55,529 nt of DNA from Candidatus Melainabacteria bacterium (GTDB lineage: Bacteria; Cyanobacteriota; Vampirovibrionia; 2-02-FULL-35-15), in contig JACQBQ010000021.1 in the NCBI GenBank assembly GCA_016201905.1, forward strand, positions 1-55,529, given 5' to 3'. Both the position numbers and the translations under genes were made by a program. The notes below the pieces were generated by a model. It saw only the letters and a list, made by a program, of their open reading frames with translations, made no database searches and was not told the origin of the DNA. The first letter of the stretch is position 1. Each line of letters opens with the position of its first letter. Shown one piece after another: positions 42,099-50,759 of this stretch.

Positions 42099-44672
42099 TC
42101 ATCTTTTTATAATTCTATCTCTAAGCAACTGTGCAAAGCGTGTTGGGTCTCCATTAAACTCATCAACTGATGTCATCATAAAAAGAATATCCTCTGAATC
42201 TATGACATAGTTTGGATTATGAGCAAGCCCTATTGCAAACAGTGAGTCAGGATTATTTCTGGCAAACTCTTTATCTTCCTGTGTAACTTTCCAACTTCTA
42301 TGCCACGTTACACGCTGTGCAAAAACAGAATCAGGATGATTATAAGCAGTTAATCTATCATTTTCTTCTACAAGAAGATCTTCTCTATTTAAAAGAGCTA
42401 TTAAAGTGTAATAATGGTAGTAGTAATTTTTTTGATAATTCTCTTCAGTTAAACCTATACTTTCAGGACAAAACAGATAAGGATTGTTTCGCATAAAGTT
42501 TTTGTCTTCTTGAGTAATTTTATAGCTCTTATTTTCTTCAAATAAATATCTTGCAAAATCTGAATGAGGATTTTCTTTTCTTACTTTAAGATCTCCAGGC
42601 TCTACTATGTAATTAGGATTAGAAAGTGCATACTGTGCAAGCCGCCAGGAATCTAAGTTTTCCCATATGGCTTTTTTATCTTCTGCTTCTATTCCATAGT
42701 CAGGTCTTTTAAGAAGATAAACAAATTCAGAGTAAGGCTCTCTTCTAAGTATTTCTTTATCTTCTTTTTCAATTACATAATTTGGGTTTTGCATTAATCC
42801 TCTTGTAAACATTGAACGAGGATTTTTTCTGGCTATTTCTATATCTTTAGGTTCAATGACATACCTGGAGTTACTTAAGATATCATTCATCCAATTCATA
42901 TCAATATTTTTTCTTAGATATTCTTTCTCGTTTTTATTTATTGGATAACCTAAAACAGCAAATCTATAGCTTATAATTGAAACCATTGAATTAAATGATT
43001 GAGATTTTTTTCCTGCATGATCATAGCCTTCTATATCCTCAGGTTGTAGCTCATAATTAGGATTCATATATAATCCATGAGAAAACCATGAATCTGGATT
43101 TTTTCTGGCTATTTTTATATCTTCTTCCTCTATTTTGTAGTCTTTTCTTCTTAATAGTGCTCCTGCAAAGTAAGTGTTAAAATTTTCTCTGGCTATTTTT
43201 ATATCTTCTTTTTGAATTTTATAGTTTAGATTTGCTACCAAAAATGGGGTGTACACTTTATTGTTAATAAGCTGTCTTGCAAGCTCTATATCAGAAGCAT
43301 TTGGTATAAAATCTTTTCTACTTAAAAGAGCTTTTGTAAACTCAGTATCCGTATTTGCCCTTGCAGCTTGTCTATCTTCTTCTTCTATTTTATAATCTTT
43401 TTTGCTAACTATATATTTTGCAAGCTCACCCGAAAGTTTTGAATATGGTTCTTTTCTAAGCAGTGTTTTCAACTCATTGTCTAAATTAACTTTTAAATTG
43501 CCCAGATTAGGATTACCTAATAATGCTCTAACAAGCATTGAATCAGGGCTTTTGACAGAATGCATAAGATCAGAAGCACTTATAATATAATCCGATCTGC
43601 TTGCAGTTACTCCTGCAAATATACTATCTGGATTTGTTTTTGCTATATCTAAATCTTGTGGTTGTAATTTGTGGTTTAGGTTTTTACCTATAAAATAAGC
43701 TAAATAAGAGTTTGGGCTTTTAGCTACTGAATCTATATCTTTTTTTTCTACTACATAATCTTTCTTTTTAAGCAAAATCTCAGTAAGTGGATTTTCAGTA
43801 TTATTTCTAACAAAGTTTTTATCACCAGCTTCAATGGTGTAATCATCTCTTAAAAAAAGATATTTTGTAAATAGTGTTCCAGGATTTCCCCATGCAAACT
43901 CTCTATCACTTTTCAATATTTTATAGCCTGGGCTTGACAATAAGCGTAACGTAACCAAACTATCTGGGTGTTTTCGAGCAATTTCATTATCTGCTTCTTC
44001 TAGCTTATATGTCGGATTTGAAATTAAAATCTCTGCTAGTCTTTTTTCTGGATTTTCTCTAACAAACTTTTTATCATTACTATCTATTACATAATCTTCT
44101 CTTGTAATTAATGCAAATGCAAAACTACTTTCAGGGTTTTTAAGAGCTATTTCTTTGTCAATCTTTTCTACTTTATAATCTTTCTTTTCGACTAGAGCAC
44201 TAGCAAAAGTTGAATCAGGATTATTTCTTGCTATTTCTATATCTTGTTTTTGAATTGGAAGTGTGGAATTGCTTATTACAAGCCTTGCAAAATAAGTATC
44301 TGGGTTTTTTCTTGCTACATCTATATCTTCTTTTTTAATCTCATAATCTTCTCTGGTTATTAGAGCTATTGCATAGCTGGTTTCTGGATTTTCCCTTATA
44401 AACTTAATATCTGCTTGTGTAATTTTAAATTTAGGATGGTAAATAAGGTCATTGACAAAGTGCGAGTCTGGATCATCTCTTAAATATTCTCTAAGTAAAA
44501 TTGGATCGTTTAATAATTTATCTAAATTAAACTCAAAGTTTTGAAAATTAAAAGGGGCAGGCTTTGTTATATTTTGAGCTGGTTTATTTTTATCAGTATT
44601 ATTCAACCCTCCAGCAAATGGTAATAAAGCTGTTCCCATAAGTGTTGTACGAAGTATGTTTAATATTTTCAT
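42099..44672 (-). CDS. Exported protein made of about 26 copies of a ~30-aa repeat
   Basis: An 857-residue protein with a signal-like start (MKILNILRTTLMGTALLPFAG). From residue about 60 to the end it is built from roughly 26 imperfect units of 29-34 residues with the core D-I-x-x-A-R-x-N-P-D-S-x-F-A and then x-x-L-x-x-x-x-D-Y-x-I-E. One unit (about residues 560-590) is degenerate. Each unit looks like a helix pair, so a solenoid is likely. It is not recognised as TPR, Sel1, LRR or another named family. Confidence 0.65.
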   Translation of the reverse strand: MKILNILRTTLMGTALLPFAGGLNNTDKNKPAQNITKPAPFNFQNFEFNLDKLLNDPILLREYLRDDPDSHFVNDLIYHPKFKITQADIKFIRENPETSYAIALITREDYEIKKEDIDVARKNPDTYFARLVISNSTLPIQKQDIEIARNNPDSTFASALVEKKDYKVEKIDKEIALKNPESSFAFALITREDYVIDSNDKKFVRENPEKRLAEILISNPTYKLEEADNEIARKHPDSLVTLRLLSSPGYKILKSDREFAWGNPGTLFTKYLFLRDDYTIEAGDKNFVRNNTENPLTEILLKKKDYVVEKKDIDSVAKSPNSYLAYFIGKNLNHKLQPQDLDIAKTNPDSIFAGVTASRSDYIISASDLMHSVKSPDSMLVRALLGNPNLGNLKVNLDNELKTLLRKEPYSKLSGELAKYIVSKKDYKIEEEDRQAARANTDTEFTKALLSRKDFIPNASDIELARQLINNKVYTPFLVANLNYKIQKEDIKIARENFNTYFAGALLRRKDYKIEEEDIKIARKNPDSWFSHGLYMNPNYELQPEDIEGYDHAGKKSQSFNSMVSIISYRFAVLGYPINKNEKEYLRKNIDMNWMNDILSNSRYVIEPKDIEIARKNPRSMFTRGLMQNPNYVIEKEDKEILRREPYSEFVYLLKRPDYGIEAEDKKAIWENLDSWRLAQYALSNPNYIVEPGDLKVRKENPHSDFARYLFEENKSYKITQEDKNFMRNNPYLFCPESIGLTEENYQKNYYYHYYTLIALLNREDLLVEENDRLTAYNHPDSVFAQRVTWHRSWKVTQEDKEFARNNPDSLFAIGLAHNPNYVIDSEDILFMMTSVDEFNGDPTRFAQLLRDRIIKR

Positions 44673-48785: not shown

Positions 48786-50759
48786 TTATCTAATTATACC
48801 TCCAGGATTATCTATAAACCCCTGTACGAGTTGATAAATATTTTCCCGGTCAACGTTCTGTAGATGCTTATCATAAAGGGCTTGTGCTTCTTCCCCTTTT
48901 AGTTCCCCTTTAAGTCCAAGATATTCTTTAACCAAATCTTCAAGTTTATCCTTTGGTACCTGCTTTATGATTTGTCTGCTAGTTAATAATGCTCTATCAA
49001 GAATTTGATTCATAAACTCACTATCTTTATCTGAAAGTTCTACCTGTGGATCAGTGTAATCAGAGGAAATGTGCCCTTCAAACATTGCGCTACTTAACAG
49101 TAAGCGTATAATGTCTCTTGCTTCTTTGTAATCTCCTTTAGCTCCGGTAGTTTCACTATTTCGTGGTAGAAGCTCTAGTTCTGCAGCTCTTCCACCCATA
49201 AGAATAAGAAGACTTTCAAGAAGTTCAGCTTTTGCAGGTAAAATCTTACTGTATAATCCACCTGAGATCATTACATGTCCTAATGATCTTCCTCGCGGAA
49301 TATTAGATATGGTTTCTATGTTCCTTTTACAGGCTAAAGCAAGTATTCCATGTCCAGCTGGTTCATGCCTGGCAATTACTTTTAAGTCTCTATCTTTTAC
49401 CTGTGCCCCGCTTTCCATTCCTATGCTTATCTCTGTAATTGCTGACTTAAAGTTTTCTTTTGTTATCAGGGACTGATTATTTTCAAATGCAATAATAGCT
49501 GCCTGTTTAATCAGGTTTTCAAGCTGTGCACCGCTAAATCCTTCGGTGTTATCAGCAAGCCATTTAATATCTACATCTTCTGCAAGTAAACCTTTTTCTT
49601 GTTTTCTACTTAAGTACTTATCTAAGACATCTTCTCTTTGACTTGATGAAATAAGAGGAGGGATTTCAATTATCATATCAAAACGCCCAGGTCTTGTAAG
49701 AGCATCATCCAGTGTGTCAGGTCGGTTTGTAGCTGCCATAACAGTGATGCGATCGTTCGGTTTAAAACCATCCATTCGGTTCAGTAACTGATTTATAGCT
49801 TGAGTATATTCCCTACTAGAGTCAGTAGAACCACTGGCACTATTTGAGCGCTTACCTCCTATAGCATCTATTTCATCAATGAAAATTATGCAATGACCTT
49901 CCTTTTTAGCTACCTTGTCAGCTTCATCAAATAAGTTGTCTATCTGGACAGCTCCCAGACCGGCAAACATTTTTATAAACTTTGAAGCACTGACCGGTAT
50001 AAAAGGAACGCCGGATTCTCCTGCAACAGCTCTTGCTAATAAGGTTTTTCCAATTCCTGGCCCTCCTATAAGAAGTATCCCCTTTGGTAATTGTGCTTCC
50101 ACCTTGTTTTCATCAGCATCTTTAATATATTTAACAATCTTCTCAAGCCTTTTTATAATATTTGGGTATCCTCTAACATCTTTAAATCTGGTATCAGATT
50201 TTACTGGCTTGAAACCATCTTTTCCACCACTCGATAAATGTTTAAAATATCTATATAAGATCAAGATTAATATAACGGCAACTAATGAAGGAGCTACCGG
50301 TGTTACTCTATCCATGATTGCCGTGATTCTACTTTTTTCACCTTTAGTAATAAGTACTGGTTCAGGGCTAAGTGTTCGTAATCCCTGTTCTAGTTTTTCT
50401 ACTTCTTTTGTATCAGTTGGCATAGTAAGATATACACTGCTTTTGTTTTTTAAAATAAATTCATAATATGCTGTAGTGGTTTGCCTTTCATCAGTACTTA
50501 TCCATAACTGTGCTTTGGTGATTTTTCCTAGCTTTGCTTTTGCTAAAACTTGATCAACTGTACTTAGAAATAAACCATCTTTATCGGGGATGTCATCTTT
50601 TATAACTTCATTATTTACTTGTGTTTGAGGAGCAGTTTGAATTTCTGCATTGTCCTTTTTGTTGCAGCCTTGAAGAGTTGTTAGTCCAAGAAGTGATGCT
50701 GCAATTAGATTTCTTGGGTAGGAAAGCAATCCGTGACTTGCTGGAGATAACTTAACCAT
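48786..50759 (-). CDS. FtsH-like AAA+ protein with altered zinc motif and lipobox
   Basis: A membrane AAA+ protein of 657 residues. It has FtsH order: N-terminal segment ending in a lipobox (LQGC, Cys32), periplasmic part, one membrane helix (residues about 155-172), AAA domain with Walker A GGPGIGKT (233-239), Walker B FIDEIDA and ALTRPGRFD, then the protease domain. The zinc site reads H465-E-P-A-G-H470, one residue longer than the HEAGH of active FtsH. The pore loop is FAG, not FVG. The rest of the domain and an Asp (ETTGAKGD) remain. It is probably an inactive or altered paralogue. Confidence 0.85.
   Translation of the reverse strand: MVKLSPASHGLLSYPRNLIAASLLGLTTLQGCNKKDNAEIQTAPQTQVNNEVIKDDIPDKDGLFLSTVDQVLAKAKLGKITKAQLWISTDERQTTTAYYEFILKNKSSVYLTMPTDTKEVEKLEQGLRTLSPEPVLITKGEKSRITAIMDRVTPVAPSLVAVILILILYRYFKHLSSGGKDGFKPVKSDTRFKDVRGYPNIIKRLEKIVKYIKDADENKVEAQLPKGILLIGGPGIGKTLLARAVAGESGVPFIPVSASKFIKMFAGLGAVQIDNLFDEADKVAKKEGHCIIFIDEIDAIGGKRSNSASGSTDSSREYTQAINQLLNRMDGFKPNDRITVMAATNRPDTLDDALTRPGRFDMIIEIPPLISSSQREDVLDKYLSRKQEKGLLAEDVDIKWLADNTEGFSGAQLENLIKQAAIIAFENNQSLITKENFKSAITEISIGMESGAQVKDRDLKVIARHEPAGHGILALACKRNIETISNIPRGRSLGHVMISGGLYSKILPAKAELLESLLILMGGRAAELELLPRNSETTGAKGDYKEARDIIRLLLSSAMFEGHISSDYTDPQVELSDKDSEFMNQILDRALLTSRQIIKQVPKDKLEDLVKEYLGLKGELKGEEAQALYDKHLQNVDRENIYQLVQGFIDNPGGIIR

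Follow-up and report, generated by a model that had tools for sequence, protein, structure and literature searches.

A conserved HExxxH zinc motif in an FtsH-like AAA+ protein of Vampirovibrionia: a probable variant metal site

The stretch of DNA analysed here (hereafter the window; 55,529 nucleotides) comprises positions 1 to 55,529 of contig JACQBQ010000021.1, which belongs to a Candidatus Melainabacteria genome of 2.28 Mb in 59 contigs (98.9% complete). On its minus strand the window carries a gene for an FtsH-like protein, whose features are collected in Table 1. The reading frame of this gene is intact and free of stops. In the Pfam search the AAA domain was recovered with E=7e-39, and AAA_lid_3 and Peptidase_M41 likewise exceeded their gathering scores, the latter with 49.4 bits against a gathering score of 29.9. 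The NCBIfam FtsH model TIGR01241 matches residues 67–561 with a score of 353, below its cut-off of 600, and the nearest solved proteins found by HMMER alignment are FtsH structures. These matches, together with the sequence itself, bear out the description given in an earlier note on this DNA, which had read the gene as an FtsH-like protein with the motif HEPAGH.

Several other genes of the window deserve mention. A MazF/PemK-like toxin ORF (PF02452; 48080–48644, plus strand) is convergent with the FtsH-like gene and is immediately preceded by a small ORF, a possible antitoxin. Further away, the minus strand encodes an 857-aa protein (42099–44672) with many short repeats of about 25–35 residues, as judged by eye, and no Pfam match, as well as an M32 carboxypeptidase Taq (PF02074; 39472–41169) with a normal HEAGH motif.

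Table 1. Coordinates, in window numbering, of the FtsH-like gene and of the motifs discussed in the text
Feature	Position	Strand	Details and basis
FtsH-like gene, AAA+ ATPase and peptidase M41 domain	48786..50759	(-)	ORF, 657 aa
Lipobox-like TLQGC, residues 28–32, Cys32	50664..50678	(-)	PS51257-like pattern match only
Predicted membrane helix before the AAA domain, residues 152–170	50250..50306	(-)	Kyte-Doolittle mean 2.03 over 19 residues
Walker A GGPGIGKT (usual GPPGTGKT)	50043..50066	(-)	sequence and alignment
Pore-loop motif FAG (usual FVG)	49959..49967	(-)	sequence and alignment
Walker B FIDEID, intact	49866..49883	(-)	sequence and alignment
Zinc motif H465-E-P-A-G-H470 (HExxGH)	49350..49367	(-)	sequence; one-residue insertion relative to solved FtsH; spacing kept in five other genomes
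His495 in edge strand (SLGHV)	49275..49277	(-)	alignment; invariant in the HExxxH group
Asp543 in TTGAKGD, putative ligand aligned to the third zinc ligand (Asp) of FtsH	49131..49133	(-)	alignments; invariant in 6/6 HExxxH members

The motor part of the protein departs from the usual FtsH sequence in Walker A and in the pore loop, both as previously noted; in the alignment it retains the sensor-1 Asn and the Arg-finger motif. Of the N-terminal membrane helices only one is clear, and the first is weak and lipobox-like. The lipobox, which had also been pointed out in the earlier note, fits a pattern of the PS51257 type; lipidation is putative, the match being one of pattern only. Upstream of TLQGC, no 19-residue stretch reaches the membrane-helix threshold in the Kyte-Doolittle scan.

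The zinc motif is encoded on the minus strand by the codons CAT GAA CCA GCT GGA CAT. Alignment to Aquifex aeolicus FtsH (6gcn) by HMMER places Pro467 as the sole extra residue within HE-AGH and leaves the flanks unshifted, in agreement with the single additional Pro reported before. Downstream, the window segment TTGAKGD pairs with TTGAEND of the same structure. As known from FtsH crystal structures, the third zinc ligand of these proteases is a distal Asp. Two published sources, PMC8197885 among them, list a Glu for M41.

Structure prediction agrees with the domain assignment. The AF2 model of the AAA and M41 parts (six sequences) reached a pLDDT of 79 and a pTM of 0.48, the domain packing being unsure; its top PDB matches are FtsHs. 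The M41 part modelled alone gave a pLDDT of 83.8 and a pTM of 0.84, with the zinc motif lying within a single helix (model residues 17–37) and D543 in another (99–117). When this model was compared using Foldseek, TM scores of 0.70 by query with FtsH 3kds and of 0.77 by target with the isolated FtsH protease domain 2di4 were obtained. Ycf2-FtsHi motor subunits are also among the Foldseek matches. Overall, the M41 part of the window protein is predicted to have the M41 fold.

Two follow-ups suggested by the earlier note, a search of the genome for another FtsH and an alignment of orthologues, were carried out. The window genome encodes two canonical FtsHs elsewhere (L002, HEGGH; L003, HEVGH), both with the pore loop FVG. 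HExxGH relatives were found in five other, separately assembled Vampirovibrionia (Melainabacteria) genomes, namely as HEVGGH in G003, G008, and G032 and as HEVVGH in G036 and G059; thus the spacing of HEPAGH is kept in all of them. The G008 gene is split across two contig ends. Identity of the five relatives to the window protein is 33–52% over the protease part, and the G008 fragment is 55% identical to it. For the comparison of motifs, 33 canonical rows were aligned together with 12 sequences from the group and its kin. All six genomes have two residues between E and G, although these vary in identity (PA, VG, VV), and in 6/6 HExxxH proteins both His, the Glu and the Gly of the motif as well as the distal Asp are invariant. 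Among these six sequences, 31 protease columns out of about 217 show no variation, and the probability of H, E, H, and D all sitting in such columns by chance is about 3.5e-4, a rough value which takes columns as independent.

The edge-strand position of His495 also distinguishes the group: it is occupied by His in 6/6 HExxxH proteins and by no His in the canonical FtsH rows, nearly all of which read LGxT. The same His is found in L034, a second G003 copy with the motif YEIVGR, in which both zinc His are lost and the motif length is retained; L050 reads AHV. Because L034 keeps this His in spite of having lost the zinc His, the edge-strand residue may perhaps be a mark of the group and nothing more.

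The paralogue L034 also gives an idea of how decay proceeds in this group, as does the FtsH-like protein L036:4557-5858 of G002, which has 434 aa, stops after the AAA lid and is devoid of an M41 domain. To judge from their sequences, decay looks like these two cases, and the HExxxH proteins are unlike that. The motor part varies as well: in L005, the HEVGGH orthologue of G003, and in L007, the N-terminal piece of the split G008 gene, Leu takes the place of the pore Phe and is preceded by one additional residue (TPLVG, TPLAG). Within the six, the window copy is by its motifs the most altered: in no other member does the zinc motif contain Pro or Walker A read GGPGIGKT, and FAG replaces the FVG of most.

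In the phylogenetic tree, the divergent group is split from canonical FtsH with 100/100 support, and the order inside it is blurred by long branches. The HExxxH members are not cleanly grouped, because two kin with HExxH, L050 (HELGH) and L051 (HEHGH), both on very long branches, fall among them in the best tree. A single origin of HExxxH was not rejected by the AU test (p 0.40), and on these trees it is neither shown nor excluded. At E ≤ 1e-25, a group member is present in 8 of the 382 genomes of the class, six of which carry HExxxH; the counts are 3 of 11 genomes in the family of the window genome and 3 of 10 in that of G036. The distribution is patchy. Outside Vampirovibrionia, a phylum sample of 386 genomes yielded no HExxxH FtsH, only ordinary HEVGH FtsHs with weak scores. 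A scan of genome contigs with narrow peptide patterns, by which HExxxH FtsHs elsewhere could be missed, returned five loci; the MAGs they come from all carry the label Melainabacteria, Vampirovibrio, Vampirovibrionales or Cyanobacteria. A viral origin of the gene was also considered and rejected, as the IMG/VR scan gave no relative.

No conserved gene neighbourhood was seen around the window gene in comparison with members of its family; by eye, G032 and G036 are the only pair with a seemingly common one. G032 encodes, alongside its HExxxH copy, a 1239-aa FtsH-like protein with HEFGH (L041:2644-6360), and in addition a 395-aa protein with HELGH (L043:2454-3638) in which no AAA motif was seen. 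In G003, G008, G032, and G036 the HExxxH gene is most likely an addition rather than a replacement, because further FtsH-like loci are listed there at a similarity usual for canonical FtsH.

The earlier note had concluded that a lengthened motif should make the metal site fail. This is not supported, because the six-residue motif and the metal-binding and catalytic residues are conserved in the orthologues and HExxxH is the metal motif of three other peptidases. In DPP III (M49), both His of HELLGH and a distal Glu hold the zinc; the helical turn concerned contains five residues, and the enzyme shortened to HExxH is still active (PMC3268031). TldD coordinates its metal via HExxxH plus Cys (PMC5810440), and the tubulin carboxypeptidase TMCP1 (KIAA0895L) combines an HExxxH motif with carboxypeptidase activity (PMC10499314). 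Distant relatives retain the longer motif, and we therefore consider the metal site to be probably a functional variant rather than a defective one.

We therefore favour, with a probability of roughly 0.6, the view that the product of the window gene is a membrane-anchored AAA+ metalloprotease with an accessory role, which descends from M41, has the zinc-helix spacing of M49, and is probably metal-binding and proteolytic. The extra residue would be taken up as a wider turn of the helix, as in DPP III and TldD; zinc would still be bound by H465, H470, and D543, and water would be activated by E466. The hexamer would thread substrates in an ATP-driven manner through its Phe-containing pore to the zinc site, where cleavage would follow. 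Such a protein would act beside the two canonical FtsHs without replacing them, and its substrate range would most likely be narrower. Several observations count against this explanation: the Pro in the zinc helix, the altered Walker A and pore loop, the lack of a conserved neighbour, the patchy family, and the Leu in place of the pore Phe in G003 and G008. As no other of the six is so altered as the window copy, the argument for activity holds more strongly for the family than for this member.

A broader formulation, whose chances we put slightly short of even, is that a lineage of M41/FtsH, confined to Vampirovibrionia so far as searched, has arrived by convergence at the HExxxH zinc geometry known from DPP III, with the edge-strand His perhaps compensating, and forms an active AAA+ protease whose metal tolerance or cleavage properties are altered.

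Alternatively, the M41 domain could be purely structural and the AAA ring could serve as a chaperone or unfoldase, either by itself or in a mixture with canonical FtsH, in the manner of the plastid FtsH12/FtsHi import motor. The two canonical FtsHs of the genome would be possible partners, the protease part is dispensable in relatives (L034, L036), and the Foldseek matches to Ycf2-FtsHi motor subunits point in the same direction. However, in plastid FtsHi, to which the earlier note had likened the protein, the motif is mutated or missing and both His are substituted (PMC8197885), whereas the six divergent members of the present group all share H, E, H, and D at one fixed spacing. The zinc motif itself is no evidence for a chaperone or unfoldase role, and we regard the pseudo-protease explanation as unlikely. 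A second possibility is that the family is active through HEVGGH or HEVVGH and that the window copy alone is decaying, its unique Pro and Walker A and its FAG being early signs of lost function. This we judge improbable, given an ORF without stops, the retained ligand residues, Walker B, sensor and Arg-finger motifs, and the identity to the G008 fragment. Finally, it is hardly credible that the CCA triplet was added by a sequencing or assembly error, which is rejected for the family because five other assemblies show the six-residue spacing with other residues at that place.

If the preferred reading of a conserved, metal-binding HExxxH lineage is true, the rule by which FtsH paralogues are classed as active or inactive according to HExxH can misclassify. 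It would also be a natural experiment on the tolerance of a zinc helix for an additional residue, for which the examples until now, DPP III, TldD, and the tubulin carboxypeptidase, are all of other folds, and the FtsH background would allow both spacings to be compared directly, as in DPP III. One published listing keeps M41 (HEXXH) and M49 (HEXXXH) apart, and in the literature searched, in which subscription journals are thinly covered, no report of HExxxH in an FtsH was found.

The comparison with known systems can be drawn as follows. With canonical FtsH of the M41 family (Thermotoga maritima, A. aeolicus) the window protein shares the order AAA+ then M41, the M41 fold, the catalytic Glu, the two His, the Asp of TTGAxxD, and the membrane anchor; it differs in having HExxGH instead of HExGH, the edge-strand His, a divergent C-terminal part, and a TIGR01241 score under the cut-off (353 < 600). 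Like plastid FtsHi and the FtsH12/FtsHi motor, it is an accessory FtsH paralogue next to active ones; unlike FtsHi, it keeps all ligand residues and has one residue added between them. DPP III has the same HExxGH spacing, with a wider turn in the helix, and is active with zinc, but its fold is unrelated, its third ligand is Glu and it has no AAA domain. Membership of the window protein in M49 itself was rejected, as there is no Pfam M49 match and the model has the M41 fold. TldD and TMCP1 have HExxxH metal sites as well, seen in a crystal structure for the former and modelled for the latter, although in unrelated folds and architectures. Overall, the conserved set of HExxGH plus Asp stands nearer to DPP III, TldD, and TMCP1 than to FtsHi.
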